A DNA stretch of 64,000 nucleotides, taken from Hamadaea tsunoensis DSM 44101 (GTDB taxonomy: Bacteria; Actinomycetota; Actinomycetes; Mycobacteriales; Micromonosporaceae). The stretch covers positions 186,001 through 250,000 of the forward strand of contig NZ_AUAX01000018.1 in assembly GCF_000428945.1 (NCBI RefSeq). The letters are read 5' to 3'. Shown here in pieces: positions 8,480-23,937 of the stretch; positions within the stretch are counted from its first letter, which is position 1; every line of letters starts with the position of its first letter. The notes beneath the pieces are model-generated. The model was not told the DNA's origin and made no database searches. It worked only from the letters and a program-made list of their open reading frames with translations. The position numbers and the translations under genes were made by a program.

Positions 8480-8680
8480 GGCCTCCCGCTCTGTCATTGA
8501 CCTGAGAGCTTCGCCGCCCGTCGCCGGGTGGCTTGCACCGTGGGTGAGGCGCGCGCACGCGCCTGCTTTTCAGAGTTCGCCTCGTCCGGACGGTGGTGGG
8601 TGCCTGAGAGTTTCTTGGGAGTATTGCTCCTACGGCGACCCCGCTGCATCGATGCGGGATTCTCTCCCGCCCGGGCTCAA
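8480..8680 (-). ncRNA. Tandem glycine riboswitch upstream of gcvT
   Basis: On the minus strand two glycine aptamers can be recognised in series. Aptamer 1 (about 8674-8591) contains GGGAGAG, the GTAGGAGCAA core and AAACTCTCAGGCA. Aptamer 2 (about 8590-8480) contains AACTCTGAAAAG, GGTGCAAGCC, GAAGCTCTCAGG and the closing ACAGAG. These are conserved blocks of the gcvT-type riboswitch, which binds glycine, often cooperatively, and turns on glycine catabolism. The element ends about 30 nt before the gcvT ATG, so control could act on transcription or on the GGAG at the start. Confidence 0.92.
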
Positions 8681-8770
8681 CGGCGTTATTCGGTTGTGGT
8701 TGTGGACGCTAGCGGTGGGGGTGGGCGATGTCAACGAGTCCGGATCACCGCGCGCTCCACCTGCGGATCC

Positions 8771-8850
8771 GGGACATTCGCGCAAGATCGCCGGCTACCC
8801 CACAGGAGCGGAGGTGAGATCGACGAACCCGGGACAAAGATATGATCTTG
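8771..8850 (-). repeat. Short dispersed copy of the 61-62 kb repeat family
   Basis: Contains GACATTCGCGCAAGATCGCC (8773-8792) plus GGCTACC, and a second block from AGGAGCGGAGG to GAACCCGGGACAAA. Both blocks recur in each arm of the large inverted repeat at 61.06-62.41 kb, where they are separated by about 130 bp more sequence. This copy therefore looks internally deleted. It sits directly 3' of the cupin gene. The bases between it and the riboswitch (8681-8770) hold nothing recognisable beyond the presumed gcv promoter. Confidence 0.75.
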
Positions 8851-8853
8851 ATC

Positions 8854-9198
8854 TTATTCGGCACGGACGACGTCGACGGACACCTCGACGGCCGGCACCG
8901 TTCCCCGGTTCTCCAGCCAGTGCAGGGTGTCGCGGTCCTCGGGCCAGCCGGGGCCCGGCCCGTACTCCGTCGCGGTGCCGTCCCGATGGTCGGTGATGGT
9001 CCCCTGGAGCACGTAGACCGTTCCGGGCCGACCCTTGTGATCATGTAGTGGGCCGAAGACGCCGCCGGGCTCGATGGTCACCTTGCGCATCCGCAGCCGG
9101 TAACCCGCCATGCCCTCGATCTCCGGGCCGAGGTCGACCGTGGCGAGCAGTTCCACGGTGACACCCCGGGCCTGCGGCGCAGCCTGTCCGTCGCTCAT
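8854..9198 (-). CDS. Cupin-domain protein
   Basis: 114 residues forming one double-stranded beta-helix. The cupin metal motifs are PGGVFGPLHDHKGRPGTVYV (two histidines and a later acidic residue) and DTLHWLENRG. Such small cytosolic cupins bind a metal and a small ligand or act as isomerase/dioxygenase-like enzymes; the substrate cannot be told here. It stands alone between the riboswitch-controlled operon and a small secreted protein gene, with a repeat copy immediately behind its stop codon. Family assignment is secure; function is open. Confidence 0.85.
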   Translation of the reverse strand: MSDGQAAPQARGVTVELLATVDLGPEIEGMAGYRLRMRKVTIEPGGVFGPLHDHKGRPGTVYVLQGTITDHRDGTATEYGPGPGWPEDRDTLHWLENRGTVPAVEVSVDVVRAE

Positions 9199-9290
9199 CG
9201 TGCCGTCCTCTCCTCAGGTGGAGAGTCCAGCGTCCCAGCAGCGGGCCGCCGGCACGGCCGAAAGCCGACCGAAGATCACACGATGGAGCG

Positions 9291-9722
9291 TCAGCAGGTC
9301 GGCGCGACCGGGACGGACGTGGTCTGCGGCAGTCCGGCCGGCGGGGTGGCGGTGAACGCCAGCTTCATCTCGGTGTAGAACTCGCCGCCGCAGACGTGCT
9401 GTGGTGTGGCCAGGGTCACGTTCACCGGGATGTCGGCGGCCTTGCCGTGCGCGCAGTCCGGGTCGCACAGGTTGATCGTCGCGACGCCGGTGCCGGTGGC
9501 GGTCTTCGACCAGGTCGCCCAGGTCATGTCCGACAGGCGCAGCGAGGAGTCCCGCGAGACGGGAGCGACCTGCGGCTTCACCGCTGCCGACGACGCGGTC
9601 TTGCCGTTCGCCGCGAGGAACGCGCCGGTGTTGCCGGCGGCCGAGGCGGGCAGGGCCGACGCGGTCAGCCCGACGACGACCGCCGCGATGGCGGTGGATC
9701 CGATGATCAGCTTCCGGCGCAT
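9291..9722 (-). CDS. Small secreted protein of unknown function
   Basis: 143 residues. ATG 9722 is preceded by AAGGAGTGCTC, a good ribosome binding site. The N-terminus MRRKLIIGSTAIAAVVVGL ending in LPASA is a clear Sec signal peptide. The mature part contains SSLRLSDMTWATWSKTATGTG, then INLCDPDCAHGKAADIPV and a C-terminal cysteine, giving four cysteines likely to pair as disulfides. The pattern of a short DMTW...W...G..G segment followed by C(D/P)xC is one I have seen in hypothetical actinobacterial secreted proteins, without known function. Single gene with its own AT-rich upstream region. Confidence 0.8.
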   Translation of the reverse strand: MRRKLIIGSTAIAAVVVGLTASALPASAAGNTGAFLAANGKTASSAAVKPQVAPVSRDSSLRLSDMTWATWSKTATGTGVATINLCDPDCAHGKAADIPVNVTLATPQHVCGGEFYTEMKLAFTATPPAGLPQTTSVPVAPTC

Positions 9723-9862
9723 GAGCACTCCTTCGGCGTGGTGCGGGTAGTGGTGCAGGTCAAGACGACTACGGCGAGTATTCCAGCGGTTACGCGACGT
9801 CGTCCACACTTTCTTTTTGCAAATTTTGCGGGTGTATGAGTGGTTTGATCTGCCTGTCGGCT

Positions 9863-10756
9863 TTAGTGCGCTTCGAGGATCAGATCGCCGTACGCGCGTA
9901 CGGCGTCGGGGAAGAAGCGGAGGAAGCGGACCGGAGCCACCGCTTCGATCTCCAGCAGGAGCAGGCCCGCCTCCGGATCGGGGATGAAGTCGAGGCGTAC
10001 CGACAGGGGAGTCGTGCCGACCAGCCGGAGGTACGCGTCGTGGACACCCCGCACGACGTCCAGCTGCGCGTCGGTGAGCCGGGCCGGCCGGGGATCGGGA
10101 TGGAACGCGTGGGTACGCGTACCCGGCTGGAGGATCGCCGCCTTGCTGATCGCATGCGAGATGTCCGGTCCCATCGTGACGACGCCCAGTTCGCGATGGG
10201 TGTCGATGGATTCGATGTACGGCTGGACCATCGCGTCCGACCCGGCCGCCCGGAGGGCCGCGATGTGCTGCGCGGCTTCGTCCACGTCCGCGAACTCGGC
10301 GGCGCCGAGCGAGCCGCCCGAGGCGACCGGCTTCACGACGATCGTGCGGCGGGCGGCGTTCGACGGCAACGCGGCCGCCAGCTCGTGCCGCAGGCGGTCC
10401 GGCGACCATCCACTGTCGACGAACGTGGTCGGCACGGTCGCCACTCCGGCTTCGGCCAGCTCGGCGAGGTAGCGCTTGTCGCAGCCGCGCAGGATCACCG
10501 GCGGCGGATTGAGTACGCGTACCCCCGCCGCGACGCGCTCGTCCAGCCAGCTGCGGAAGGCGGGCAGGTCCAGCCACATGCTCCACGGCGACTGGAGGAC
10601 GACGGTCTCATGGGCCGACCAGTCGACCGCTGGATCGTCCCAGGCCGGCACGTCCACGCGTACCCAGGAGGAGAGCTGGGCCGCGACGAGCGGGGTGTCC
10701 GCGTCGGACCAGTGGGACTCGGGGAACCGGAGGGAGGTGACCAGGGCGAGGTTCAT
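9863..10756 (-). CDS. ATP-grasp domain protein
   Basis: 297 residues. It reads as an ATP-grasp fold enzyme of the RimK/glutathione synthetase-like group: RGCDKRYLAELAEAGVATVPT, the ATP-binding VKPVASGGSLGAAEF, QPYIESIDTHRELGVVTMG, and the metal-binding end LSVRLDFIPDPEAGLLLLEI followed by EAVAPV. Such enzymes join a carboxylate to an amine via an acyl phosphate. No precursor peptide or partner enzyme sits beside it, so the substrate is unknown; similar stand-alone proteins are common in actinomycetes. It lies 39 nt after the GGDEF-EAL gene on the same strand, possibly cotranscribed. Confidence 0.82.
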   Translation of the reverse strand: MNLALVTSLRFPESHWSDADTPLVAAQLSSWVRVDVPAWDDPAVDWSAHETVVLQSPWSMWLDLPAFRSWLDERVAAGVRVLNPPPVILRGCDKRYLAELAEAGVATVPTTFVDSGWSPDRLRHELAAALPSNAARRTIVVKPVASGGSLGAAEFADVDEAAQHIAALRAAGSDAMVQPYIESIDTHRELGVVTMGPDISHAISKAAILQPGTRTHAFHPDPRPARLTDAQLDVVRGVHDAYLRLVGTTPLSVRLDFIPDPEAGLLLLEIEAVAPVRFLRFFPDAVRAYGDLILEAH

Positions 10757-10795
10757 GACCGCATCGTAAGTGCGCCATTGCGGGTGGGGCGGGGT

Positions 10796-13177
10796 TCATC
10801 GGTCGGCGGCGGCCAGGTCGCGCTGGCCGGCGAGCAGGCGGGACACGCCGTCCGCGGTCATCGGCTGGGCCAGGTGGTACCCCTGGCCCAGGGTGTAGCC
10901 GAGCTCGCGCAGGACCGTCGCCTGCTCGGCGCTCTCGATGCCCTCGGCGACGGTGTCGAGGCCGTGCGCGCGGGCGAGCTGGATCACCGCGCGCGCCACC
11001 GCCTGCCGGGTGCTGGCGGCGGCCGGCAGGCCGTCGTCGATCTCGATGCCGTCGACGAAGGACTTGTCCAGCTTGACGATCGAGGCGGGGAAGGCGCGCA
11101 GCAGGCTCAGCGACGACTCGCCGGTGCCGAAGTCGTCGAGCGCGAGGCGCACGCCCATGCGGTCGAGTTCGGACAGCGTCCGGGCGACCTGCTGGCCGCG
11201 CAGGATGGCCGACTCGGTAACCTCGAGCACCAGCCGGTCGCCGGGCAGCCCGCTGTCGGCGAGCGCGGCGCACACGTCGGCGACGAAGTCGGGGTCGTGC
11301 AGCTGCCGGACGGAGACGTTGGGACCCACCTCCTGCGGTGCGTCCAGGCCGAACTCCGCCAGCCACGCGGCCGCCTGCCGGCACGTCTCGCGCAGCACGA
11401 ACCGGCCCACCGGCACGATGAGGCCCGTACGCTCGGCGGCCGGGATGAACTCGGCCGGGCGCAGGACGCCCCGGGTGGGGTGATGCCAGCGCAGCAGCGC
11501 CTCGACGCCCACCACCCGGCGGTCGGACAGCCGCAGGATCGGCTGGTAGACCAGCTCGAACTCGCCCTCGTCCAGGGCCCGGCGCAGCTCGCCGCCGAGC
11601 TGCATGTACGCCAGTACGGGTTCGCCCATGCCGTCCGCGTACCGGACGAAGCCCGCCTTGCCGCGCTGCTTGGCCGCGTACATCGCCACGTCGGCGTCGC
11701 GCAGGACCGAGTCGACGGTCGCACCGGGCCCGGCGTCGGCGATGCCGATGCTGGCCTGCACCAGCAGCCGGTGCTCGCTGATCGGGCGGTCCAGCGCGTC
11801 CAGCAGCCGGGCGGCCATCTCCTCCGGGTCGGCGTGCGTGCCGAAGAGGAGCACCGCGAACTCGTCGCCGCCGACGCGTACGGGCAGGCCGTCCTTGCCG
11901 ACCTCGGCCCGCAGCAGCTGGGCGATCGACACCAGCAGCCGGTCGCCCGCGCCGTGGCCGAGCAGGTCGTTGACCGTCTTGAAGTCGTCGAGGTCCAGGA
12001 TGAGCACCGAGGCCCGTCCCCGGGTGGCCAGGACGGTCGCGAGCCGGTCCCGAAACAGCGCCCGGTTGGCCAGCCCGGTCAGGCCGTCGTGGCTGACCTC
12101 GTACTGCAGGCGTTCCTCCTGGGACCGCGCGGACCGCAGCAACCGGGAGTTCTCCCGGAAGGCCAGGTACTGCCGGACGGTGACCAGCGCGGTCACCACC
12201 ACCGCGGCGATCACGACCACCCGGCCCGGCCACCGCAGCGGCGCGCCGAACGCGACCGCGACCAGCGGCAGGTCGACCGCGGCGACGGCCAGGTAGGGCA
12301 GCAGCACGTCCCGGCGGGCCGTCCGCCGGCCGTCCTGCGGGGCGGCCAGCCACTGCGCCGCGACGCCGAATGTGACCAGCAGCGGCGCCATCGGCATCAC
12401 GACCGTCTGGACGGGAATCCCCGCCACGAATCCGAACCGGACGGCGAGCACCGCGACGACCCCGGCGACGACGCCGCCGCCGGCCGCGATGAACCGCAGC
12501 GCCGTGGGATCGACCGGGCCGCCCGCGACGTACGACACCTTCGTCGCGGCGCCGACGGCGACCAGGAAGCCGAGCCCCACCAGCGCCATCGCCTGCCGGC
12601 TCCACGGCTCGGCGGCGGTGAGCATCGGGGCCAGCCCGGCGTACCACAGCACGGCCGTGCAGCCGAGGAACGCGATCGTGCGGTCCAGCAGCAGCCGCCA
12701 CCACTCGCCGGCGCCCGCGACGGCCACCGGTACCCGGGCCACGCCCCAGATCGCGACGCAGAATCCGATCGCGACACAGGCCGCGGCCGGCAGGGGCATG
12801 GCACGCGTACGCGCCTGGGCGGCGTGGGTCAGCATGTCCACCGCCAGCCAGCCGTAGCCGACGGAGATCACGGCGAGGGCCAGGCGCACGGTACGCCAGA
12901 AGCGCCGGGCGACGCGGTCGAGCGCGGTGTCGTGGCGGCACAGGTGATGCACGGCGGCGGTGGCGAGCGCGCCGCCGACCGGGACGAAGACGTAACCGAG
13001 GGCCTCGCTGCCGCCCACGCCGGCGAAGTACGCCGCGCACCAGGCGGCACCGAGGGCGACCACCGCGGCGGTGGCCCCCACATATCGACGGACGGCCTTG
13101 CGTACCACCGGTTCGGCCGCATCGACCGCCGGGCTCGCCGTCGGCCGGAAGGCCGCTCGCGTCACGGCGCTGACCAT
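10796..13177 (-). CDS. Membrane-bound GGDEF-EAL cyclic-di-GMP enzyme
   Basis: 793 residues from ATG 13177. Residues about 20-310 hold eight or so hydrophobic membrane segments, which probably form an integral sensor. A GGDEF domain follows with an intact GGDEF at 436-440 and the upstream LDLDDFKTVNDLLGHGAGD. The EAL domain has intact E559-A-L in VGVEALLRWHHP, DDFGTGESSLSLL and KLDKSFVDGI. Both active sites look complete, so it could make and break cyclic-di-GMP; which activity dominates cannot be read. A longer reading to 13366 adds a non-conserved tail and was not used. Cyclic-di-GMP governs development in streptomycetes; a similar role here is inference. Confidence 0.93.
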   Translation of the reverse strand: MVSAVTRAAFRPTASPAVDAAEPVVRKAVRRYVGATAAVVALGAAWCAAYFAGVGGSEALGYVFVPVGGALATAAVHHLCRHDTALDRVARRFWRTVRLALAVISVGYGWLAVDMLTHAAQARTRAMPLPAAACVAIGFCVAIWGVARVPVAVAGAGEWWRLLLDRTIAFLGCTAVLWYAGLAPMLTAAEPWSRQAMALVGLGFLVAVGAATKVSYVAGGPVDPTALRFIAAGGGVVAGVVAVLAVRFGFVAGIPVQTVVMPMAPLLVTFGVAAQWLAAPQDGRRTARRDVLLPYLAVAAVDLPLVAVAFGAPLRWPGRVVVIAAVVVTALVTVRQYLAFRENSRLLRSARSQEERLQYEVSHDGLTGLANRALFRDRLATVLATRGRASVLILDLDDFKTVNDLLGHGAGDRLLVSIAQLLRAEVGKDGLPVRVGGDEFAVLLFGTHADPEEMAARLLDALDRPISEHRLLVQASIGIADAGPGATVDSVLRDADVAMYAAKQRGKAGFVRYADGMGEPVLAYMQLGGELRRALDEGEFELVYQPILRLSDRRVVGVEALLRWHHPTRGVLRPAEFIPAAERTGLIVPVGRFVLRETCRQAAAWLAEFGLDAPQEVGPNVSVRQLHDPDFVADVCAALADSGLPGDRLVLEVTESAILRGQQVARTLSELDRMGVRLALDDFGTGESSLSLLRAFPASIVKLDKSFVDGIEIDDGLPAAASTRQAVARAVIQLARAHGLDTVAEGIESAEQATVLRELGYTLGQGYHLAQPMTADGVSRLLAGQRDLAAADR

Positions 13178-13426: not shown

Positions 13427-15175
13427 ATGGGGCCCGCAACGTCGCTGTCCATCCGGGTTCTGGGGCCGATCGAAGTGAGTACCGGCCACGGAATGCTCCG
13501 CCTGACCGCCCGGGAGCGCGGCGTCCTGACCGTGCTGACCGCCGCGGCCGGCCGGCTGGTGCCGACCGAGCGGATCATCGACGCGGCCTGGACGCAGGCG
13601 CCCCCGCCGTCGGTGCGCAACCGCGTCCACAGTGTGATCTCGGGGCTGCGGCGGCGGTTGGGGCGGGAGGTCATCGTCACCCGGCCGACCGGATACGTCC
13701 TGAACCTGTCCACCCCCGGCCAGCTCGACGCGGCCGAGTTCGCGTGGCTCATCGAGCGCGGGCGGACGCTGCGGGCGATGGGCGACCGGCGGGGCGCGGC
13801 CGACTGCTTCGCGACCGGCCTGCGGCTCTGGCGGGGACCGGCCTATGAGGACGTCGACAGCACGGCCGTCACCTGCGAGGCCGCCCGGCTGCGGGAACTG
13901 CGCCACGCCGCCCTGGAGGAGTACGCCACCGTCCAGCTGGACCGCGGAGCGCTGACGGAGCTGATCGACGAGCTGACCCCGGCCCTGGCCGCGGACCCGT
14001 TGCAGGAGCGGCTGCGCGGCCACCTCATGGTCGCGCTGCACCGGTCCGGCCGGCAGGCCGAGGCGCTGGCCGTCTACGACGCGGGGGCCCGGCTGCTCGC
14101 CGAGGAGCTGGGCCTCGACCCGTGCGGGCAGCTGAAAGCCGTCCGGGGCGCGATCCTCGCCGACGAGCCGGTACGCGTAGCGCCCGCCGCCGTGGCCGAC
14201 CGGGCCGTCCCCCGGCAGCTTCCGGCGGCGCCCGATCTCGCCGGCCGGCGTACGGAGCTGGCCCGGCTGGGTCGGCTGCTGCTGCCCGTGGCGGTGCCGC
14301 ACGCGTACCGGGTGGTGGTCGTGTGCGGCCTGCCCGGCATCGGCAAGAGCGCGCTGGCCCTGCTGGCCGCGCACGAGATGCAGCACCGCTACCCGGACGG
14401 CTGCCTGTACGCCGACCTGCGGTCCACCGACGGCCGCCCGGCCTGGCCCGCGCCGGTGCTGGCCGGATTCCTGCACGCGTTCGGCCGGCCGCCCGGCCCG
14501 GTCGGGGACGACGTCCAGGAGCTGGCGGCGCTGTTCCGGTCGGCCACCCACGGCCGGCGGATGCTGGTGGTCCTCGACGGCGCCGAGAGCGAGGAGCACG
14601 TACGCCCGCTGCTGCCGGCCGGCGGGAACACCACGTTGATCACCTCGCGGCACCGCCTGGGCGGGCTGGACGGCTCGACGGGTCTGGCCCTCGACGTCCT
14701 GCCGCCCCCGGACTGCCTGGACCTCCTCGGCGACGTGGCCGGCCACCAGCGCGTACGCGACCACCGGTCCGACGCGCTGGAACTCGTCCGGCTCTGCGGC
14801 GGCGTACCGCTCGCGGTCCGGATCGCGGCGCTGCGGCTGGCCAGGCATCCGGCGATGGCGGTGTCCACCCTGGTCCGGCGGCTGCGCGAGCCCCGGGGCC
14901 GGCTGGCCGAGCTGGTCGCCGGCGACCTCGATCTGGCCGAGCGGCTGCGGTCGGGCTGGCCGGCGCTCGCACCGACCACGGTGGACCTGCTGGGCCTGCT
15001 CGGCCGGGCCGGCCCGCGCCGGTTCACCGCCGGCAGCGCGGCCCGGCTCGCCGGCTGCCCGGCCCCCGAGGTACGCCGCCGGCTGGACGACCTCGTCGAC
15101 GCGCACCTGCTGACGTGCTCCGACGGCACCTACTACGAGCTGCCCGAACTGGTCGCCCTGTCGGTCCGGTCCTGA
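13427..15175 (+). CDS. SARP/AfsR-family regulator with NB-ARC ATPase domain
   Basis: 582 residues. A winged-helix OmpR-type DNA-binding domain (about 5-95, VPTERIIDAAWTQAPPPSVR, RVHSVISGLRRRLG, PTGYVLNL) is followed by a BTAD domain (about 100-240, ending LAEELGLDPCGQLKAV). Then comes an NB-ARC STAND ATPase core (about 265-500) with Walker A GLPGIGKSALA (K307) and Walker B MLVVLDGAE. The C-terminal TPR array typical of AfsR is missing; the chain ends with a short winged-helix-like segment. SARPs activate antibiotic and RiPP clusters. The gene lies 97 bp upstream of the cysteine-rich peptide gene on the same strand and is the likely activator of that cluster. Confidence 0.9.
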   Translation: MGPATSLSIRVLGPIEVSTGHGMLRLTARERGVLTVLTAAAGRLVPTERIIDAAWTQAPPPSVRNRVHSVISGLRRRLGREVIVTRPTGYVLNLSTPGQLDAAEFAWLIERGRTLRAMGDRRGAADCFATGLRLWRGPAYEDVDSTAVTCEAARLRELRHAALEEYATVQLDRGALTELIDELTPALAADPLQERLRGHLMVALHRSGRQAEALAVYDAGARLLAEELGLDPCGQLKAVRGAILADEPVRVAPAAVADRAVPRQLPAAPDLAGRRTELARLGRLLLPVAVPHAYRVVVVCGLPGIGKSALALLAAHEMQHRYPDGCLYADLRSTDGRPAWPAPVLAGFLHAFGRPPGPVGDDVQELAALFRSATHGRRMLVVLDGAESEEHVRPLLPAGGNTTLITSRHRLGGLDGSTGLALDVLPPPDCLDLLGDVAGHQRVRDHRSDALELVRLCGGVPLAVRIAALRLARHPAMAVSTLVRRLREPRGRLAELVAGDLDLAERLRSGWPALAPTTVDLLGLLGRAGPRRFTAGSAARLAGCPAPEVRRRLDDLVDAHLLTCSDGTYYELPELVALSVRS

Positions 15176-15189
15176 CCGGGCAGCGGTTC

Positions 15190-15206
15190 CACAGAATTAA
15201 CACAGA
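15190..15206 (+). promoter_or_regulatory. Candidate SARP-binding direct repeat upstream of the peptide gene
   Basis: CACAGA occurs at 15190-15195 and again at 15201-15206, an exact 11-bp period. SARPs are known to bind direct repeats on one face of the helix with 11- or 22-bp spacing just upstream of a -10 box. The site lies 67 nt before the peptide start codon in the only gap between the SARP gene and the cluster. A six-base repeat could arise by chance. Confidence 0.45.
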
Positions 15207-15272
15207 GCGCCGCCGCACGATCCTCGTGGATCTCATCACGGATCCGAGTACGGGAAACGAGGAGGTGAGGAC

Positions 15273-15470
15273 ATGTCCACCATGCTGCGCCAGGCGGGTG
15301 ACCGGCTGCTCGGCCTGTTCCTGCCCAAGGCCGCCGCGGGCGCCTGCGTTCCGACGCAGGGCAACCGCTGCAGCTGCTTCTGCGTCGTGCAGGGCGGCGA
15401 GGGCAAGATCTGCTACTGGAAGACGCAGAACTGCTACGGCAACTGCGTCGCGACGACCATCCGCTGCTAA
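15273..15470 (+). CDS. Cysteine-rich exported peptide precursor (eight cysteines)
   Basis: 65 residues. The ribosome binding site AGGAGGTGA (about 15260-15268) is almost fully complementary to 16S rRNA, which implies very high expression. Residues 1-24 form a leader with a hydrophobic stretch (LLGLFLPKAAAGA) ending in AGA, a type I signal peptidase-like A-x-A site just before C25. The predicted mature part, 41 residues, holds eight cysteines (25, 33, 35, 37, 47, 54, 58, 65), enough for four disulfides, plus W49. The next genes encode a MauD-like thioredoxin, an ABC exporter and a signal peptidase. No lanthipeptide, lasso or radical-SAM enzyme is present, so disulfides are the likely modification. 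Family not recognised; function (toxin, bacteriocin, signal or redox peptide) unknown. Confidence 0.85.
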   Translation: MSTMLRQAGDRLLGLFLPKAAAGACVPTQGNRCSCFCVVQGGEGKICYWKTQNCYGNCVATTIRC

Positions 15471-15477
15471 TCACGAC

Positions 15478-15505
15478 GGTGGCGCCGCCGTCGCGCGGCG
15501 CCACC
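15478..15505 (+). terminator. Perfect hairpin between peptide gene and export genes
   Basis: GGTGGCGCCGC, a 6-nt loop, then its exact complement, beginning 8 nt after the peptide stop codon. It has no U-tract. Placed here it probably acts as a partial terminator or 3' stabiliser, letting the precursor mRNA outnumber the mRNA for the downstream machinery. Confidence 0.65.
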
Positions 15506-15528
15506 GCCACCCGCTGCGAGGAGCTTCC

Positions 15529-16059
15529 ATGATTCCCACCCTGGCCGCGGCGGTGGTCGTGCTCGCCGCCGTCGTCGCGCTCAACCTGCTGCTGACCTTC
15601 GCGATCCTGCGCCGGCTGCGCACCATGAAGGAGAGCGGCGGCGCCGAGGCCGACACGCACCGCCCGCCCGTCGGCACCCCGGTCGGCCGGTTCGACGCGG
15701 TGAGCGACGACGGTTTCCGGCTCACCGACGAGGACCTGCGGCACGGCCTGACCCGGTTCGCCTTCGTCATGCCCGGCTGCGGCCCCTGCGAGGGATTGCT
15801 GAGCGCGCTGCGGCCCGGCATCCTGTCCGACCGGACGCTGCTGGTGGTCGTCGCCGAGGAGGCCGGCCACCCGGACGCCGTGGCGATGCGCGAGTCCATC
15901 CCGGACGACCTGCGGGTCTTCTTCGCCCCGCTGGGCAGTCCGATGTGCGAGGCCTTCCAGATGGCGGTGTTCCCGTCGGTGGTCGAGGTGGCCGGCGGCC
16001 GCATGATCGCCATCGCCGACACCATCGCCGCGGCACCGAACCAGCCGGTCGCGGCGTGA
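15529..16059 (+). CDS. MauD-like membrane-anchored thioredoxin-fold protein
   Basis: 176 residues. An N-terminal membrane anchor (about 4-27) is followed by RRLRTMKESGG and a thioredoxin-like domain with C84-G-P-C87 in the FVMPGCGPCEGLL segment. The layout (anchor, GRFDAVSDDGFRLT, then CxxC) parallels MauD of methylamine dehydrogenase clusters, a protein needed for a small subunit with many disulfides. A further cysteine lies in GSPMCEAFQ. Here it should form or rearrange disulfides in the eight-cysteine peptide on the outer face of the membrane. The start at ATG 15529 has GCGAGGAG upstream; its stop overlaps the ABC gene start (GTGA). Confidence 0.85.
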   Translation: MIPTLAAAVVVLAAVVALNLLLTFAILRRLRTMKESGGAEADTHRPPVGTPVGRFDAVSDDGFRLTDEDLRHGLTRFAFVMPGCGPCEGLLSALRPGILSDRTLLVVVAEEAGHPDAVAMRESIPDDLRVFFAPLGSPMCEAFQMAVFPSVVEVAGGRMIAIADTIAAAPNQPVAA

Positions 16060-17897
16060 CCGGCCGGCTCGCACCGCTGCGGGCCGCCCGGGCCGCGCTG
16101 TCCCTCGGCCGCCGCGCGGCCGGGGGACTGGCGGTCGCCGCCTTCGCGCTCACCATGGTCTCGGGGACCGCGCCCGCGCTGGCGGGCTGGCTGGTCAAGA
16201 AGGTGATCGACGACCTCACCCGCCCGGGCGGCGCCCCGGACCCCGGCCGCGCGGTCTGGCTCGGCGTGGCCTCGGCCGCCGTCGCCGGGGGCGGCCTCGT
16301 CGTCGGCTACGCGGGCGGGCTGCTCGCGACCCGCATGCAGAACGCCGTCACCCTGCACGTCCAGGAGCGGCTGTACGCGCGGATCAACGGGTTCGCCGGG
16401 CTGCACCGCTTCGAGGACCCGGCCTTCGCCGACCGGCTGCGGCTGGCCGAGGACGCGGCCACGGACGCGCCCGCGATGCTGGCGGAGTTCACGCTGGCCG
16501 TGGTGCGGTCGGTCGTCGGCATCGCCTCGTTCGTCGCGGTGCTGCACGCGGTGTGGCCGCCGATGAACGCCCTGCTGGCGATCGTCGCCGTCACCGCCGT
16601 GGCGGTCCAGCTCACCGTGGCCCGGCGCGAGTCGGAGATGATCCAGGCGAACACGGCCACCCAGCGCCGCCAGCTCATGTACCGCCGGCTGCTGACCGAC
16701 CACGCCGTGGCCAAGGAGGTCCGCGTCTTCGGGCTCGGCGACTTCTTCCGCGTACGCATGCTCGGGGCGCTGCGGCGGGCGAACCAGGCCGAGGCCGGCG
16801 TCCGCACGCGGGCGGCCGTCCTGCAGAGCGGTATGGCCGCCGCGGGGGCCGTGGTGGCGGCGATCGGCATCGGTGTCGTGATCGCCCGCGCGATCCGGGG
16901 CGATGTGACCGCCGGTGACGTCACGCTGTTCCTGACGGCGGTGGCCGCGGTGCAGTCGGCCACGCTCACGATCGTCGGCCAGGTCCAGGCGGCGGCCCGC
17001 AGTACGCGGCTGTTCGCCAGCTACCTCGACGTGATGGAGGCGCCCGAGGCCATGCCCGACGGCGTCGGCGTACCCGGGCCGTTGCGTACCGGGATCGTGC
17101 TGGAGGACGTGTGGTTCCGGTACGACCACAGTGGACCGTGGATCCTGAAGGGCGTCGACCTGACCATTCCCGCCGGGCGCTCGCTCGGACTCGTGGGCCG
17201 CAACGGCGCGGGCAAGAGCACGATCGTCAAGCTGCTGTGCCGCTTCTACGACCCGCAGCGCGGCCGCATCCTGTGGGACGGGGTCGACCTGCGCGCGTAC
17301 TCCGTCGCCGACCTGCGCCGCCGGATCGCCACCGCCTTCCAGGACTTCCAGGTGTACGACCTCACCATCGCCGAGAACATCGGCGTCGGCGCGCTCGACC
17401 GGCTCGGCGACCGGACGGCGTACGCGCGCGCGGCGGCCCTCGCCGGTCTGGACGGTGACGTGGCGGCGCTGCCGCGGCGGTACGAGACGCTGCTGAGCCG
17501 GGCGTTCTTCCACGACGACGCCGAGGAGGCCGGGGTGAGCCTGTCCGGCGGGCAGAACCAGCGGCTGGCCCTCGCCCGGACGCTGATGCGCGAGGACGCC
17601 GACCTGATCATCCTGGACGAACCCAGCTCCGGGCTGGACCCGCAGGCCGAACACCACGTGTACGCGACGCTGGGGGAGTACCGGTCCGGCCGGACGAGCG
17701 TCCTCATCTCGCACCGGCTCGGCGCCATGCGCGGGGCCGACCTGATCGTCGTGCTGGCGGACGGGGTGGTCGTGGAGCGCGGAACGCACGAGGAGCTGGT
17801 CGCCGGGGCGGGGGTCTACGCGGGCCTGTACGCGTTGCAGGCGGCGAGCTACCGCGAGGACTCCCCGGCCCACGCCGTACCGGGCGGCCCGCGATGA
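16056..17897 (+). CDS. ABC exporter, fused membrane and ATPase domains
   Basis: 613 residues from GTG 16056, which overlaps the preceding stop. The N-terminal half (about 15-320) is a six-helix exporter membrane domain; the C-terminal half is a complete ATPase: Walker A GRNGAGKSTIV (K387), Q-loop TAFQDFQVYD, signature LSGGQNQRLALAR, Walker B LIILDEPSSGLD (D521, E522) and switch histidine in SHRLG. There is no N-terminal C39 peptidase domain, so leader removal must be done by another enzyme; the next gene supplies one. Probable role: export of the cysteine-rich peptide. Homodimeric half-transporter expected. Its stop overlaps the peptidase gene start (ATGA). Confidence 0.92.
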   Translation: MTGRLAPLRAARAALSLGRRAAGGLAVAAFALTMVSGTAPALAGWLVKKVIDDLTRPGGAPDPGRAVWLGVASAAVAGGGLVVGYAGGLLATRMQNAVTLHVQERLYARINGFAGLHRFEDPAFADRLRLAEDAATDAPAMLAEFTLAVVRSVVGIASFVAVLHAVWPPMNALLAIVAVTAVAVQLTVARRESEMIQANTATQRRQLMYRRLLTDHAVAKEVRVFGLGDFFRVRMLGALRRANQAEAGVRTRAAVLQSGMAAAGAVVAAIGIGVVIARAIRGDVTAGDVTLFLTAVAAVQSATLTIVGQVQAAARSTRLFASYLDVMEAPEAMPDGVGVPGPLRTGIVLEDVWFRYDHSGPWILKGVDLTIPAGRSLGLVGRNGAGKSTIVKLLCRFYDPQRGRILWDGVDLRAYSVADLRRRIATAFQDFQVYDLTIAENIGVGALDRLGDRTAYARAAALAGLDGDVAALPRRYETLLSRAFFHDDAEEAGVSLSGGQNQRLALARTLMREDADLIILDEPSSGLDPQAEHHVYATLGEYRSGRTSVLISHRLGAMRGADLIVVLADGVVVERGTHEELVAGAGVYAGLYALQAASYREDSPAHAVPGGPR

Positions 17898-18346
17898 CCG
17901 CCGTGACCGTCGCCGCCCTGGCCCTGGCCGCCGTCGCGGGCCTGGGAATCCTCGCAATACGCCGCCGGCGCCTGGTCGTCACGGTCGAGGGCGACAGCAT
18001 GCGACCGACCTATCAGGACGGTGACCGGCTGCTCGTGCGGACGGGCCCGGCCTGCCGCCCGGGTGACGTGGTGGTCTTCGCCAACCCGCACGGCCCCGAA
18101 CCCGGCCCGGCGATGCTCGTCAAACGCGTGGCGGCGACGGCCGGCGACGCGGTGCCCGAGGCGACGCGTACGCGGATCGGCGCCGGACCGGTCCCGCCGG
18201 GCCGCATCGTCGTCCTCGGCGACGCCGTGCTGAGCCTCGATTCCCGCAACTTCGGCTACGTCAGGGCGGACACGGTGGTCGGCGTGGTGCTCCGCGAACT
18301 CGGGGCCCGGCGGGAACCCGGCGTCACCGCCGGCCCTGGAGCGTAG
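17894..18346 (+). CDS. Type I signal peptidase (S26 family) of the peptide cluster
   Basis: 150 residues. One N-terminal membrane helix (about 3-22) then an S26 fold: nucleophile S35 in VEGDSMRPTYQDGD, general base K77 in MLVKRVAATAGD, and the box E motif LDSRNFGYV. It is shorter than housekeeping LepB, resembling small dedicated S26 peptidases found in export clusters. Cotranslated with the ABC exporter (ATGA overlap), it is the obvious candidate for cutting the peptide leader at AGA-Cys. Its 3' end overlaps the convergent AfsR-like gene by 23 bp. Catalytic residues are directly visible; the substrate is inferred from context. Confidence 0.88.
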   Translation: MTAVTVAALALAAVAGLGILAIRRRRLVVTVEGDSMRPTYQDGDRLLVRTGPACRPGDVVVFANPHGPEPGPAMLVKRVAATAGDAVPEATRTRIGAGPVPPGRIVVLGDAVLSLDSRNFGYVRADTVVGVVLRELGARREPGVTAGPGA

Positions 18347-21056
18347 CCCGGAACTCGGCGGCCGCCGGGTGCCCGAGCTGATCCAGGAAGTCGGCCGCCT
18401 GGCGGCGGTGGCGTTCGGCCGCCCCGATCCGGCCGGCGGCCTCCTCGCTGTCGCCCAGGCCGGTCAGGGAATCGGCCTGCTGGTAGAGGTCGTCGAGCTC
18501 GGCGTACATGTCGATGGCCCGGGTGAAGGCTTCCCGGGCCGCGTCGAAGTCGCCGAGGCCGCGATGGACGTGGCCCAGGCTGTCCCAGATCGCCGCCACG
18601 CCGTGCGGGTCGTCGACCGCCGCGCTCAGTTCCAGGGCTTCGGTGCAGTACTCCAGCGCCGCCTCGTAGTCGCCGGTCCGGGTGTGGCAGAAGCCGACGG
18701 TGTTCAGCGCCCGGCAGATGGTGCGCTTGTTGCCGGACCGGTGGTAGAGCGGCAGCGCGTCGAGCGCGTGGTTCAGCGCGTCGTGGTGGCGCCCCTGCTG
18801 GTCGGCGGCCTTCGCCAGTCCCATGTGGATGCTCGCCGGCAGGGCCGGATCGCCGTCGTCGGTGAAGCACCGCAAGGCCAGCAGGAAGTGGTCGATGGCC
18901 CGCTGTGCGTCCCTCGACCGCACGTAGTTGTTGGCGATCGACCGCAGCGCGAGGCCGCGCCGGGTCAGGTCACCGGTACGCTCGGCGGCGGCCGCCTCGG
19001 CCCGCAGCGTCGCGATCGCTTCGTTGACGCTGCCCGACCGGTAGAAGTATTCGCTGGTGACGCCGGCGAGACCGATCACCAGCGCGTCGAGGCCGTGTCC
19101 GGCCGCGAGTTCGACGGCGGCGACGAGGGCGGCGGTCTCGCGCCCGAACCAGTCCAGCGCGGCGGCGCGGTCGGGCAGCGCGGGTACGGCTACCCCCGGT
19201 TCGGTGTCGATCAGCTGGTCGCGCGGCCGTTCGGGGAACACCAGCAGCGCACCGGCGCGGGCGGTACGCAGGTAGTGGCTGAGCAGCCGCCGCACCGCCG
19301 CGACGGGTGCCGGGCCGGCCGACGCCAGCTCGACGGCGTACGCCTTCAGCAGGTCGTGCAGGACGAACAGCCCGGGCGACACCTCGGTGAGGAGGCTGGC
19401 CTCCTCGAGTTCGCGCAGGGCGCGGACGGCCGGACCGCGGCCCTCCCCGAGGAGGCTGTCGGCGGCCTCGATCGTGACGTGCGCGCCGCCGGGCAGGCCC
19501 AGCAGCCGGAAGGTCGTCGCGGCGGCGGGACTCAACCGGTCGTAGGACCACGACAGCACGGTACGCAGATCGGAGTCCAGGTCGTCGCCGGTGTACGCGG
19601 CCAGCAGGCGGTCCGGCCGGCCGACCTCGTCGGCGAAGGCGAGCAGCGGGAACGCGGGTTTGGCCGTCACGCGGGCCGCCACCACCGACAGCGCCAGCGG
19701 CAGGCCGGCGCAGGCACTGACCAGTCGGCCGAGCGCCTCGGGTTCGGCGTCCGCCCGGCGCCTGCCCATCCGGGCGGCGAGCAGCCGGGCCGCGTCGGGG
19801 TCGTCCAGCACGGCCACCGGCAGCGACGCCGCGCTGTCCGTCACCGCAAGGCCGGTGAGGTGGCTGCGGCTGGTGACCAGGACGGCGCACCCGGCGGCGT
19901 GCGGCAGCAGCGGGCGTACCTGCTCGGCGGTCCGGGCGTTGTCGAGCACCACCAGGACCCGGCGGCCGCTGAGCGTACTGCGGTAACGGCCGGTGAGCGC
20001 GGACAGGTCCGACGGTGGGTCGTCGACCCCGAACGCGAGCAACGCCTCCCGCAACGCCGTACGCGGATCCGTCGGCTCCGTCGCGCCGGTGTATCCGTTC
20101 AACGCGATGAACAGCTGCCCGTCCGGGAACCGCCCGGCGATGTCGTGGGCGTACCGCACGGCCAGGGCGGTCTTGCCGACGCCGCCCGGCCCGTGGAGCA
20201 CGACCGGTCCGGCGCCCCGGACCAGCTCGTCGAGCGCCGCCAGCTCGGCCTCCCGCCCCACGAACGGGTGGACGGGCCGGGGGAGCTGCGCGGGCGGCGG
20301 CGTACCGGATCCGGACGGCGCCGGTTCCTGGCGGAGGATCGCGGTGTGCACCGCGGCCAGGTCCGGCCCGGGATCCACACCGAGCTCCTCGGACAGGCGC
20401 GTACGCGCCGTGTGGAACACCGTCAGCGCCTCCTCGCGGCGACCTGAGGCGGCGTACGCGCGCATGAGCAGCCCGATGAGGCGTTCGTCGGCCGGCGTCT
20501 CGGCGAGCGCGGCGAGGATCTCGGCCACGAGATCGGCATCGCGGCCGAGGGCCAGGTCGGCGGCGATCCGTTCGACGAGAGCCCGCCGCCGCCGCTCGTC
20601 GAGTCCGGTACGCAGAGCCGTCTGGGTCGGATGCAGGCTGAGATCGCCGAACGCCGACCCCCGCCACAGCTCCAGCGCGGTACGCAGCAGCGCGGCCCGC
20701 CCGGCCGGGGTCGGGTCGGCCAGTGCCCGCCGGACGAGCTCGTCGAACCGGTGTACGTCCACATCGGACGGGCGTACGTTCAGCTGGTAGCCGTTGTCGC
20801 GGCGCTCGATGACGCCGTCGTGGGCGCCGGCCCGTCTGAGCGCGGAGCGCAGCCGGGAGAGGTAGGTCTGCACGACCTGGCGGGCGCCGTCGGGCGCACC
20901 GGCGGGCCACAGCAGCGATTCCAGCCGGGCCGCCGGGACCAGCCGGCCGGCCTCCAGGGCCAGGACGGCCAGCAGCAGCCGCTCCTGGCGGCGGGCGATC
21001 ACGACGGGACGGCCGTCGACCTCGGCTTCGATCGGACCGAGCAGCCGCAGTTCCAC
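18324..21056 (-). CDS. AfsR-like SARP-NB-ARC-TPR regulator
   Basis: 910 residues with the full AfsR layout: winged-helix DNA-binding domain (about 1-92, starting MELRLLGPIEAEVDGRPV), BTAD (about 95-240, ending LSEELGVDPGPDL), NB-ARC ATPase with Walker A GPGGVGKTALA (K295) and LVVLDNA, then TPR repeats (about 650-905, for example AQRAIDHFLLALRCF, YEAALEYCTEALEL, FDAAREAFTRAIDMY). It is convergent with the signal peptidase gene, overlapping by 23 bp, and so closes the peptide cluster on its right side. It may be a second regulator of the cluster or an unrelated neighbour. STAND ATPases of this kind switch state on binding a ligand or phosphorylated partner. Confidence 0.92.
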   Translation of the reverse strand: MELRLLGPIEAEVDGRPVVIARRQERLLLAVLALEAGRLVPAARLESLLWPAGAPDGARQVVQTYLSRLRSALRRAGAHDGVIERRDNGYQLNVRPSDVDVHRFDELVRRALADPTPAGRAALLRTALELWRGSAFGDLSLHPTQTALRTGLDERRRRALVERIAADLALGRDADLVAEILAALAETPADERLIGLLMRAYAASGRREEALTVFHTARTRLSEELGVDPGPDLAAVHTAILRQEPAPSGSGTPPPAQLPRPVHPFVGREAELAALDELVRGAGPVVLHGPGGVGKTALAVRYAHDIAGRFPDGQLFIALNGYTGATEPTDPRTALREALLAFGVDDPPSDLSALTGRYRSTLSGRRVLVVLDNARTAEQVRPLLPHAAGCAVLVTSRSHLTGLAVTDSAASLPVAVLDDPDAARLLAARMGRRRADAEPEALGRLVSACAGLPLALSVVAARVTAKPAFPLLAFADEVGRPDRLLAAYTGDDLDSDLRTVLSWSYDRLSPAAATTFRLLGLPGGAHVTIEAADSLLGEGRGPAVRALRELEEASLLTEVSPGLFVLHDLLKAYAVELASAGPAPVAAVRRLLSHYLRTARAGALLVFPERPRDQLIDTEPGVAVPALPDRAAALDWFGRETAALVAAVELAAGHGLDALVIGLAGVTSEYFYRSGSVNEAIATLRAEAAAAERTGDLTRRGLALRSIANNYVRSRDAQRAIDHFLLALRCFTDDGDPALPASIHMGLAKAADQQGRHHDALNHALDALPLYHRSGNKRTICRALNTVGFCHTRTGDYEAALEYCTEALELSAAVDDPHGVAAIWDSLGHVHRGLGDFDAAREAFTRAIDMYAELDDLYQQADSLTGLGDSEEAAGRIGAAERHRRQAADFLDQLGHPAAAEFRATLQGRR

Positions 21057-21156: not shown

Positions 21157-23937
21157 CTAGTCTTCGGCGAGCAGCCGCGCGGCCGGGATCGACCGGATCA
21201 TCCGCATCGGCACCGCGGACGCCAGGAGGGCCAGCACGACGCCCCCGGCCGCGCAGGCCGCCGCCACCGCGTACGCGTCGCGGGTCAGCTGCGGTGCGAG
21301 CAGAGCCGTCAGCCCGAGGGCGAGGACGCCGCCGGCCACCGCCCCGGCCGAGGCGATCAACGCGGCCTCGTACGCGACGAGCCGGGCCAGCGGCCGGTCG
21401 GCCCATCCGGTGGCGCGCAGGAGGGCGTACTCGGCGGATCGTTCACGGACGTTGACGTAGAGCACGTCGGCGACCGAGACCGCGCCCAGCAGGGCGGTGA
21501 TCGCGGCGGCCAGGTAGTCGGCCGGGGCGGCCTGCACGGTGACGGCGTTGCCGAGCAGCGAACCGGTGATGCCGCCCTGGAACGCCACGTCGATCACGGC
21601 GAGCAGTACGACGGCGGTCATGCCGACGGTGAGGCTCAACGCGCCGAGCACGCTGCGGCCGGGCGTACGCGCGACGTTGCGGACGGCGAGCCCGAACACG
21701 CCGCGCAGCGCGACACCGTGCCGGCGTGCCGTCACCGCCGGGCGCAGGGCCGCCGCGGGTGTCGCCCGGGTGGCCCGGACGGCCGGGCCGAGACCGGCGA
21801 GCAGGGCCAGCCCGACCGCCGCCGGGACCGCCAGCAATGCCACCCGGTGCTGGATCGGTACGCCGAGCGGCGGTGCGAGCCCGAACGCCGCGCCGGTTCC
21901 CAGGACGCCGGCGGCCAGCCCGACGGCGGCCGCCTCCCCGAGGACCAGGCCGAACAGCCGCCGGGCCGGCCAGCCGAGGCAGGACAGGACGCCCAGCTCG
22001 GTGCGGCGCGTACGCACGGCCGCCGAGGTCGCGTTGCCGACGGCCAGCCCGCAGGCGATCAGGACGAGCAGGGCGAACAGGACCGTCTTGCGGTCGACGG
22101 CGGTCACGACGTTCGCTGCGACGCCCTTCTTCGACCAGGGTTCGGCCACGACCATCGCGGGCCGCCCGTACTTCCCGGCCGGGAGGCTGATGTCCACGTT
22201 GGACGGTGACGCGCCGACCACCACGTCGACCCGCAACCCGGTCAGCGCGTGGATCCGGTCGCCGACCGCCCGCAACCGCTCGGTCGACAGGTCGTCGAGG
22301 CCGACGTCGCCGGTCAGGCGTACGCGTACCATGCTGATCGGCTTGTCGGCGTTGGTGACCTGCCGGAACGGATCGCGCAGCAGGGCCTGCATCCCGGCCA
22401 GGGTGGTGACGACGGACGGGCGGTGGGCGATCAGGCCGCCGAGATTGGTCGACGGCAGCAGCTTGCGGTCGCCGAGCGCGGCCCGGGCGGCGTCGTCGGC
22501 GGCGGTCGCCCCCGGCACGTACGCGAGGTCCATCGGCGCCTGCGTCAACTGGGGCCCGGTGACGATGCGATCGGGATCGAACTGCCCGACGGCCTGCAGG
22601 TCCGGCAGTTGCTTGACCCACGTGCCGTCCTCGACCTGCTCGTAGGAGGCGCCGTCCGGGCTGCGGTCGGTGAACGGCCGGACCATCGTGTCGCCGAGGT
22701 CGATCGGGTTCTGCCAGCCCCAGTAGTCGAACGGCCCCGCGATCAGCTGCGCCGACGGCGGGACGGCCTGGGCGCGCAGGGCGGGATCCACCGCCACCGG
22801 ACCGGTCACCACGAGGTTGTTCACCTCGGCGTAGTAGTCGTCCGGCCGGTCGTGCACCTTCGTGACGGCCCGGACCACGTCCGCGTACGCGGTGTCGGCG
22901 CCCACCGTCTCGTGGCCGACCACCTGGCCGGGCCGCTCGTCGAGGACGTTCATCGCGGCGGTGCTGTCGGACACGGTCGTGACGGCGGGGACTCCGTCCA
23001 CCCGGGACACCGACAGCTCGACCCGCTCGTCCACCTGCGTACGCCCGGCCAGCAACATCGGGATGGTCGCGGTGGTATACGACCCCGGCGGCATCCGCGA
23101 TCCGGCCGGGACCTGGGAGATCGTCCGCGTCGACGGCCCGTCCGCGGCGGTCAGGTAGCGGCCGGCGGTGACCGCCGTGTCCAGCCCGTCCAGCCGCGCC
23201 TCCTGCGCCGGGTCGACGCCGACCACCAGCATCGGGAAGCCGAACTGGACGTAGACGTACGGATGCCCGCCGGACATCCCGTCCTCCAGGATGGACGCGG
23301 AGGTGGGGTCGGTGGACCAGCAGACGAGGACCCGCCGCTGCGACGGCAGCAGGTTGGTGTCGGAGTAGCCGCCGGAGTTGCCGCACACGTCGACGGACCG
23401 GCCGCCGATCCGCTCGTGCAGCCGGCTGCCGTCCCAGTCGATGTGGTTCTTCGTCACGTACAGGTAGATGTCCCCGTCCGGAAGGCGGCTGGTCCCGCCG
23501 TCCGCGACGAAGGTCGGGGAGACCCGCAGCACCTGCTGGTCCACGCCGGACTTCACATAGGGCGTCAGGTCGATCTTCACCCGGCCGTACTGGATGACGT
23601 AGCCGCCGACGCCGATCGGCGCCGCCACGTCCACGTCCGGCAGGGCCGCGATCCGCCGCCACTGCGCCTCGGTGATGCCGCCCGACATCCCGGCCAGCTG
23701 TCCACTCTGGACGAGACCCTGGGCCTGCTCGACGGGGGTGACGGCGTCGGCCGGGCGTACCATCAGGTCGTAGGCCGGACGCGCGGCGTCGGTGACCGTG
23801 GCGGTGAGTTCGAGCCGCGACTGGCGGGCGGCGGAGAACAGCAGCGCGAAGCTCGCCACGGCGATGGCGACGGCGGCGAGGGTGGCGACCGAACGGCCGC
23901 GGCGCAGGCGCAACTGGGCCCAGATCAGGCGGATCAC
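21157..23937 (-). CDS. FtsX-type ABC transporter permease
   Basis: 926 residues. A membrane helix at about 18-38 (VATLAAVAIAVASFALLFSA) is followed by a very large extracytoplasmic region (about 40-615). Then come clusters of three to four helices at about 620-725 and a second FtsX core at about 760-915 ending PMRMIRSIPAARLLAED. The duplicated-FtsX plan matches LolC/MacB-like permeases that perform mechanical work on periplasmic or cell-wall substrates rather than transport through a channel. The gene overlaps the upstream ATPase remnant by ATGA. Because that ATPase is gutted, the permease must borrow another ATPase or be non-functional. Confidence 0.88.
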   Translation of the reverse strand: MIRLIWAQLRLRRGRSVATLAAVAIAVASFALLFSAARQSRLELTATVTDAARPAYDLMVRPADAVTPVEQAQGLVQSGQLAGMSGGITEAQWRRIAALPDVDVAAPIGVGGYVIQYGRVKIDLTPYVKSGVDQQVLRVSPTFVADGGTSRLPDGDIYLYVTKNHIDWDGSRLHERIGGRSVDVCGNSGGYSDTNLLPSQRRVLVCWSTDPTSASILEDGMSGGHPYVYVQFGFPMLVVGVDPAQEARLDGLDTAVTAGRYLTAADGPSTRTISQVPAGSRMPPGSYTTATIPMLLAGRTQVDERVELSVSRVDGVPAVTTVSDSTAAMNVLDERPGQVVGHETVGADTAYADVVRAVTKVHDRPDDYYAEVNNLVVTGPVAVDPALRAQAVPPSAQLIAGPFDYWGWQNPIDLGDTMVRPFTDRSPDGASYEQVEDGTWVKQLPDLQAVGQFDPDRIVTGPQLTQAPMDLAYVPGATAADDAARAALGDRKLLPSTNLGGLIAHRPSVVTTLAGMQALLRDPFRQVTNADKPISMVRVRLTGDVGLDDLSTERLRAVGDRIHALTGLRVDVVVGASPSNVDISLPAGKYGRPAMVVAEPWSKKGVAANVVTAVDRKTVLFALLVLIACGLAVGNATSAAVRTRRTELGVLSCLGWPARRLFGLVLGEAAAVGLAAGVLGTGAAFGLAPPLGVPIQHRVALLAVPAAVGLALLAGLGPAVRATRATPAAALRPAVTARRHGVALRGVFGLAVRNVARTPGRSVLGALSLTVGMTAVVLLAVIDVAFQGGITGSLLGNAVTVQAAPADYLAAAITALLGAVSVADVLYVNVRERSAEYALLRATGWADRPLARLVAYEAALIASAGAVAGGVLALGLTALLAPQLTRDAYAVAAACAAGGVVLALLASAVPMRMIRSIPAARLLAED

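Follow-up and report, generated by a model that had tools for sequence, protein, structure and literature searches.

A candidate maturation and export operon for a family of disulfide-rich peptides in actinobacteria

A 64,000-nucleotide stretch of the Hamadaea tsunoensis DSM 44101 genome (contig NZ_AUAX01000018.1, positions 186,001 to 250,000; hereafter the window) carries a compact operon for a small cysteine-rich peptide, a membrane-anchored thioredoxin-like protein, an ATP-binding cassette (ABC) exporter and a small S26 peptidase. With a probability of about three in four, we consider this operon the maturation and export unit of a disulfide-rich peptide family, carried by soil actinobacteria, that resembles ribosomally synthesized and post-translationally modified peptides (RiPPs). 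An earlier note on this DNA had proposed a possible disulfide-peptide production and export system, and a system dedicated to maturing and exporting such peptides remains the best reading: cysteine counts are predominantly even, all 42 related genomes with a detected precursor also carry the thioredoxin, the peptidase keeps its serine and lysine in 18/18 sequences, and many cassettes include MauE. The locus is more than a chance arrangement, with a thioredoxin gene beside the precursor in most relatives' loci. The peptides may serve in antagonism or in signalling.

A conserved leader and a variable core

Three sequence profiles define the family: A1, built from 23 precursors; A4, a broader precursor profile of 58 sequences; and A3, for the thioredoxin. 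Across 85 distinct precursors, counted after duplicates were dropped, a leader of 19-27 residues, typically [G/A]D[R/K]LLxxLVPxxxAxA, precedes a short, Cys-rich core (median 42 residues). All 85 leaders are free of cysteine and all 85 carry an A-x-A motif; A22, A24 and C25 are invariant columns in an alignment of 58 precursors. The window peptide is as the earlier note described it, a 65-residue open reading frame (ORF) with eight cysteines, none of them ahead of A22-G23-A24. Mean identity is 41% in the leader versus 25% in the core, or 17.5% with cysteines left out (400 random pairs among the 85 precursors), and 74 different cysteine spacings occur in the set. A conserved leader followed by a variable core, as found here, is the general pattern of RiPP precursors.

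The leader would act as a common address tag, leaving the core on the C-terminal side of A-x-A free to vary. Judged by run length and hydropathy alone, the leaders appear unlike a typical signal of the general secretory (Sec) pathway: with the last five residues set aside, stretches free of charged and N/Q/H residues reach at most 8 residues in all 85 leaders and at most 6 in 72 of them, and the median best hydropathy over a 9-residue window is 1.07, which speaks against Sec. Because it appears un-Sec-like and is conserved where the cores vary, the leader is probably a recognition element.

The number of cysteines is even in 84/85 distinct precursors. It is also even in 64/69 held-out precursors, a further set absent from the profile, in which every member was counted, including one without a clear start (L246; L numbers denote loci, G numbers genomes and C numbers contigs). 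Among the held-out peptides, A-x-A is present in 66/69 and one leader contains a cysteine. Ribosome sites were counted for 65/69, a figure given no weight because the choice of starts favoured them. Control small ORFs of similar size and cysteine content have even counts in 207/318 cases; they were filtered by a simple leader pattern, and some precursors may remain among them. Set against the control rate of 0.65, the held-out count has a one-sided probability of 7e-8, a figure that treats related family members as independent. Even cysteine counts combined with a redox enzyme would imply disulfides.

Standard annotation overlooks the precursors, as 0/58 match any model in Pfam or, at E <= 0.01, in NCBIfam. 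In Streptomyces clavuligerus F1D18, for example, where the cluster lies on a linear plasmid, both precursors and the thioredoxin carry the label hypothetical, and their neighbours are annotated as 'MauE/DoxX family', 'ABC transporter' and 'S26 family signal peptidase'. It is conceivable that the cysteines are modified in some other way, by thioether formation or metal binding, which would make the product a metallopeptide or a RiPP with other cross-links. Metal binding by Cys-rich cores is feasible, and serine and threonine contribute 7.7% and 7.9% of core residues. We regard this outcome as very unlikely: the operon proteins include no lanthionine, sactionine or YcaO enzyme by Pfam, in agreement with the earlier note's observation that known RiPP-modifying enzymes are absent; none of the 58 precursors fits an NCBIfam model; and even parity alongside a thiol-redox partner fits disulfides.

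An AlphaFold2 model of the window core is a three-stranded sheet (predicted local distance difference test score, pLDDT, 84; predicted template modelling score, pTM, 0.51). No fold family is claimed for the core, because a structure search of the PDB with this model returns no match below E 0.68; the precursor profile has one match among PDB sequences, at E 1.1. Members come from Lentzea, Kibdelosporangium, Amycolatopsis, Actinosynnema, Streptoalloteichus, Nonomuraea, Actinomadura, Micromonospora, Paractinoplanes, Phytomonospora, Virgisporangium, Hamadaea, Embleya and Streptomyces, a list drawn from a scan with a degenerate DNA pattern whose sample leans to Lentzea.

Co-occurrence of precursor and thioredoxin

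Precursor and thioredoxin occur in the same genomes. The searches (E <= 0.1 for a single peptide, E <= 0.001 for A1 and E <= 1e-10 for A3) scored only part of each genome's candidates, and misses are possible. A1 matches 42/151 related genomes and A3 matches 55/151; the 55 contain all 42 precursor genomes (Fisher 3e-26), and A1 matches 0/96 thioredoxin-negative relatives. In a class-wide sample of 394 genomes, which shares the window genome and some others with the relatives, all 27 precursor genomes fall inside the 33 thioredoxin genomes (Fisher 2.5e-36). Used alone at E <= 0.1, the window peptide matches 34/151 relatives. A phylum-wide A1 search that scored 15 candidates per genome matches only the window's own genome among 396 and is not used as evidence of absence.

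The two genes are also linked physically. A thioredoxin gene lies near the precursor at 13/20 loci of the first fetch. The DNA-pattern scan yields 45 stretches, 31 with leader-bearing precursors and 14 without; for the 31 named precursors, a thioredoxin lies beside 28 and an S26 gene beside 26 within 8 kb, some loci being cut by their ends. The window genome itself has four such loci, with 4 precursor matches (contigs C16, C37, C7 and C18), 4 thioredoxins and 4 small S26 genes.

Proteins of the putative maturation and export pathway

The thioredoxin is of the TlpA/ResA type, as judged by its CxxC motif, proline, fold and N-terminal anchor. Both CxxC cysteines and a proline are invariant in 14/14 family members, the profile finds thioredoxin (E 2e-10) and ResA (E 9e-9) in the PDB, and the AlphaFold2 model of the window protein (pLDDT 89) has a ResA/DsbE-like fold. 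The earlier note had called this protein a MauD-like membrane thioredoxin with a CGPC motif; membrane thioredoxin and motif both hold, while the MauD label is a loose fit. Neither Pfam nor NCBIfam has a model that the window protein matches, the MauD equivalog TIGR02661 included; 3 of the 14 members match ResA, and 2 match MauD weakly (best E 1.2e-4). The membrane thioredoxin, often with MauE, would form or isomerise the disulfides.

MauE (PF07291) is found in the cassettes L035, L041, L159, L170, L184, L308, L311 and L314, is assigned by position in L039, and by BLAST only in L164, L185, L186, L309, L310, L312 and L315. In L306, MauE and thioredoxin form one protein (7789-8730; PF07291 plus the thioredoxin profile), and L307 encodes a similar 315-residue protein (7566-8513). 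The fusion suggests that both act together. The two fusions adjoin an 8-Cys core whose leader misses the profile, and they may represent a further branch of the system. In the window genome, MauE relatives occur away from the operon (7 matches, 3 above cut-off). A separate observation concerns L314, where two thioredoxins, one ABC protein, one S26 peptidase and one MauE surround three precursors of two types (7687-12377), an arrangement that suggests cassette duplication. Pfam scans of the neighbours of orphan precursors and thioredoxins find no common extra partner besides MauE; they meet ispF, argCJBD, pheST, an aldehyde dehydrogenase and others.

The combination of MauE, a thioredoxin-like membrane protein and a Cys-rich polypeptide recalls methylamine dehydrogenase maturation, in which MauE and MauD serve MauA. 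The same trio raises the question of whether the peptide could be, like MauA, a small subunit for electron transfer, which we consider highly improbable. The precursors are not MauA, given that 0/58 match any Pfam family; both the sequence and the spacing of their cores are hypervariable, which a structurally constrained subunit would not be expected to show; and ABC and S26 genes are not known to belong to mau systems.

The ABC protein would export the peptide. Its best NCBIfam matches are MsbA- and NHLP-exporter-like, below cut-offs, and Pfam detects in it no C39 peptidase, the domain expected of class II bacteriocin and NHLP exporters; the earlier note had likewise described an exporter without C39. 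The same note's small S26 peptidase scores above the cut-offs of PF10502 and TIGR02227 (63.9 bits against a cut-off of 47 for the latter). The catalytic residues Ser35 and Lys77 are invariant in 18/18 S26 sequences. A-x-A is the usual signal-peptidase site, and the small S26 enzyme would cut after it; from this site and the retained Ser/Lys pair, the core of the window peptide is predicted to start at Cys25.

Side of the membrane

Charge distribution around the transmembrane (TM) segments points inward. The thioredoxins have no K/R before the TM segment (0/14) and 1-5 K/R just after it (14/14). Similarly, 16/17 S26 peptidases have no K/R before the TM segment and 16/17 have at least one after it, and the CxC loop of MauE or fusion proteins lies on the positive side in 8/8. 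Other S26-family proteins of the window genome show the opposite charge pattern in 3/3 cases, although one of the three (L218) is without the Ser motif. By the positive-inside rule, the active sites of thioredoxin, S26 and MauE are predicted to face the cytoplasm, which would correspond to a canonical RiPP pathway of modification, trimming and then export. That the peptide is matured on the inner face and only then exported is, in our judgement, evenly poised between right and wrong.

Signal peptidases and TlpA/ResA-type thioredoxins whose function is known work on the outside. The ABC protein might export an unfolded precursor, with thioredoxin (and MauE) and S26 acting on the outer face as a private Dsb plus signal-peptidase pathway. 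The ResA/DsbE-like profile matches and model agree with such an order of events, as does A-x-A as the site of cleavage. The charge asymmetry of all three proteins predicts the reverse orientation, and the remaining S26-family proteins of the window genome, with their opposite charges, are at odds with it as well. Outer-face action falls somewhat short of even odds, and the inner-face and outer-face versions carry similar weight.

The thioredoxin might also be a reductive chaperone that keeps the thiols reduced or isomerised ahead of export, with disulfides forming spontaneously outside and no dedicated oxidase. This is unlikely, in our view. The predicted inward-facing CxxC would suit a reductase, known ResA members, which some family members match, are reductases, and the window operon has no MauE beside it. 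The presence of MauE, a redox membrane protein, in many cassettes and its fusion to thioredoxin argue for more than reduction, and 8-Cys cores would be expected to misfold easily without an isomerase or oxidase.

Dispersed precursors and few machines

Some genomes hold far more precursors than machines. At E <= 0.01, A4 matches 61 precursors in G010, 37 in G029, 34 in G083 and 20 in G007, of which 54, 29 (plus four more), 28 and 18, respectively, were read as peptides in the sequence. The same genomes have 2, 3, 2 and 1 thioredoxins and 2, 3, 2 and 1 small S26 genes. A4 finds a precursor in 0/7 thioredoxin-negative control genomes. The scanned neighbours of orphan precursors are unrelated genes such as ispF, and in G010 and G029 a thioredoxin gene (by argCJBD, pheST and a SARP-like gene) stands apart from an ABC and S26 pair (by an aldehyde dehydrogenase gene).

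The earlier note had named peptide genes without these neighbours as a finding that would refute its proposal. Taken literally, such genes exist at 6/20 loci (L037, L040, L044, L045, L047 and L051), where no thioredoxin, S26 or full-length exporter match lies nearby, and their genomes carry the machinery elsewhere. Because G010, G029 and G076 have thioredoxin and S26 genes at other sites, the six orphan loci look like dispersed substrates. One machine with many substrates is the simplest reading of these arrangements: in some genomes, the same machinery would serve precursor genes that number in the dozens and lie dispersed along the chromosome. The opposite of G010 is seen in G076, a genome of many cassettes with 16 A1 precursor matches, 17 thioredoxins and 19 small S26 genes.

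The fullest form of the proposal combines these points: in a new class of bacterial mini-protein system, a single actinobacterial genome would encode as many as ~60 disulfide-rich peptides, each tagged by the leader and dispersed in the genome, and 1-3 shared sets of thioredoxin, MauE, S26 and ABC proteins would oxidise and trim them on the cytoplasmic face before they are exported folded and cross-linked. We put this composite forward tentatively, as somewhat more probably wrong than right in one part or another.

A palindrome-like sequence, GTCCAnnnTGGAC (at most one mismatch), occurs upstream of 16/54 G010 and 5/29 G029 precursors, with a shuffle mean of 0.35 in G010; L129, L130, L135, L143, L173, L180 and L234 provide examples. 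Relative to the rest of the same loci, its enrichment is 5.7-fold in G010 and 4.7-fold in G029; G083 has a single site (2.2-fold) and G007 has none. It is only suggestive of a shared upstream operator of a regulon. At another G029 locus (L279, 9330-13201), two odd-Cys precursors, a thioredoxin and an S26 gene stand beside genes of the thioesterase/PP-binding and AMP-binding kinds, and the whole may be a hybrid cluster.

Observations against the proposal

Several observations weigh against a dedicated disulfide-peptide system. Within the family, odd cysteine numbers occur in 1/85 and 5/69 precursors; one of the five held-out cases has an extra cysteine in the leader, one has no clear start and three are plain exceptions. 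A-x-A is absent from 3/69 held-out peptides, and the kinship of family members means that none of these counts is independent. The predicted active sites would sit in the reducing cytoplasm, odd for an oxidase, and no MauE gene adjoins the window operon.

The co-occurrence has its own weak points. Since 12 of the relatives supplied loci for the profiles, some of the 42-in-55 overlap arises by construction. In the class-wide sample, G587 and G645, two of the 27, match over the core only and have partial thioredoxin matches. A thioredoxin without a detected precursor is found in 13/55 relatives and 6/33 class genomes. Nine of the 34 relatives matched by the window peptide alone are weak (E 0.016-0.1), thioredoxin-negative and unconfirmed by A1. 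At L048, one of the 20 loci of the first fetch, a precursor stands with ABC and S26 genes and the thioredoxin is not adjacent. One of the seven control genomes, G014, has a single S26 match. The gene concerned (G014:C36:50976-51467) is of the system type, in a genome where neither thioredoxin nor precursor was detected. Finally, the stems 3' of the precursors, described below, are only modestly below shuffles in energy (z -0.8 to -2.8).

Gene organization, hairpin and regulation

The window operon has the organization that the earlier note reported, with all elements in place: a Streptomyces antibiotic regulatory protein (SARP) gene, the 65-residue precursor, the hairpin, thioredoxin, ABC and S26 genes, and a convergent AfsR-like gene (Table 1). 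Thioredoxin, ABC and S26 genes overlap by four bases at each joint (GTGA and ATGA), also as previously noted, and the end of the AfsR-like gene overlaps that of the S26 gene.

Table 1. Features of the operon and its borders (positions are those of the window)
Feature	Position	Strand	Basis
SARP/AfsR-type transcriptional regulator, 582 aa	13427..15175	+	BTAD 1e-35, Trans_reg_C, NB-ARC; 5' of precursor
Precursor peptide gene, 65 aa, 8 Cys	15273..15470	+	ORF check; AGGAGG in front
Leader, 24 aa, Cys-free, A-G-A end (A22-G23-A24)	15273..15344	+	alignment of 58 precursors
Predicted mature core, 41 aa, 8 Cys, from Cys25	15345..15467	+	even Cys count, as in 84/85 precursors
12-bp perfect hairpin, precursor/thioredoxin gap	15477..15506	+	arms 15477-15488/15495-15506
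Membrane-anchored thioredoxin-like protein, 176 aa, CGPC	15529..16059	+	N-terminal TM
ABC exporter, TM + ATPase, without C39 peptidase domain	16056..17897	+	PF00005 1.3e-29
Small S26 (signal peptidase I type) peptidase, 150 aa	17894..18346	+	PF10502, TIGR02227 above cut-off
Convergent AfsR-like regulator with tetratricopeptide repeats (TPRs), 910 aa	18324..21056	-	BTAD, NB-ARC, TPR

The perfect hairpin of the earlier note is confirmed as a 12-bp inverted repeat. Folding was applied to 14 of 21 loci (the window included, orphan loci and L050 left out), and all 14 have a long stem in the gap 3' of the precursor, with differing sequences. The hairpin is probably a read-through attenuator that would let the precursor exceed the enzymes. 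SARP-type regulator genes lie close to many family loci, and genes similar to the AfsR-like regulator occur near several relatives' operons. SARP/AfsR regulators may control the window operon.

Relation to known systems

In layout, the precursors resemble those of conotoxins, which also join a conserved leader to a hypervariable Cys framework. Conotoxin precursors take the eukaryotic secretory route, and no sequence relation is claimed.

The nearest precedent lies in genome mining. In Streptomyces, the decRiPPter study described three candidate families that include mauE, one of which also includes mauD; precursors in these families have at least 8 Cys, and a role for mauE and mauD in modifying RiPP precursors was proposed (decRiPPter, 2020, PMC7794033). 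The earlier note's description of the system as undescribed is therefore too strong, as Streptomyces candidates of this kind had already been flagged (PMC7794033). By description, those families are similar to the one reported here. The Streptomyces relatives in the present sample have thioredoxin, ABC and S26 genes, some also MauE, and their named precursors have 6 Cys instead of 8. The decRiPPter text on these families amounts to one paragraph, in which no leader, S26/ABC mechanism, dispersed precursors or experiment appears (PMC7794033).

Two other RiPP systems share parts of the proposed pathway. The lanthipeptide synthetase SyncM is described as having up to 79 substrates (PMC9872173), and prochlorosins and SyncM-type lanthipeptides likewise pair many precursors with one promiscuous machinery. 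Their cross-links are thioethers made by a lanthionine synthetase; here, the corresponding enzyme would be a thioredoxin, often with MauE. TMcin of Staphylococcus aureus G1905 is described as a peptide with a TM helix and one disulfide, whose pathway uses a DsbA-like CPHC enzyme and an S2P-like protease (PMC13252029). Its RiPP route is similar in centring on the membrane, in removing a leader and in using both an ABC transporter and a thiol oxidoreductase of its own, TmcD. The family described here differs in its 2-5 possible disulfides (odd-Cys members excepted), its S26 peptidase and its ResA/TlpA-like thioredoxin. Among titles and abstract openings of the open-access literature, which leaves most subscription papers outside its scope, no other paper on this peptide family was recognised.

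RiPPs, disulfide peptides and one-enzyme-many-substrate systems are already known, and the association with MauE/MauD has been noted before. What is unusual here is the enzyme set and, in some genomes, the very large number of dispersed substrates. If the proposal is right, these peptides form an apparently unnamed actinobacterial class whose leader-tagged route tolerates diverse Cys-rich cores, and the MauE/MauD-like pair gains a substrate family. Such a route would yield stable peptides with bioactivity and might be used as a chassis to produce knottin-like peptides. The place and manner of bacterial cysteine oxidation in peptides outside the Dsb pathway would also become testable, and the peptide libraries would be a bacterial analogue of a venom repertoire.

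Other features of the window

A phage origin was considered and is unsupported, the matches consisting of five records with short 70-79% identities over 1-2% of the query. An FtsX-type permease gene (21157-23937, minus strand) adjoins the convergent AfsR-like gene.

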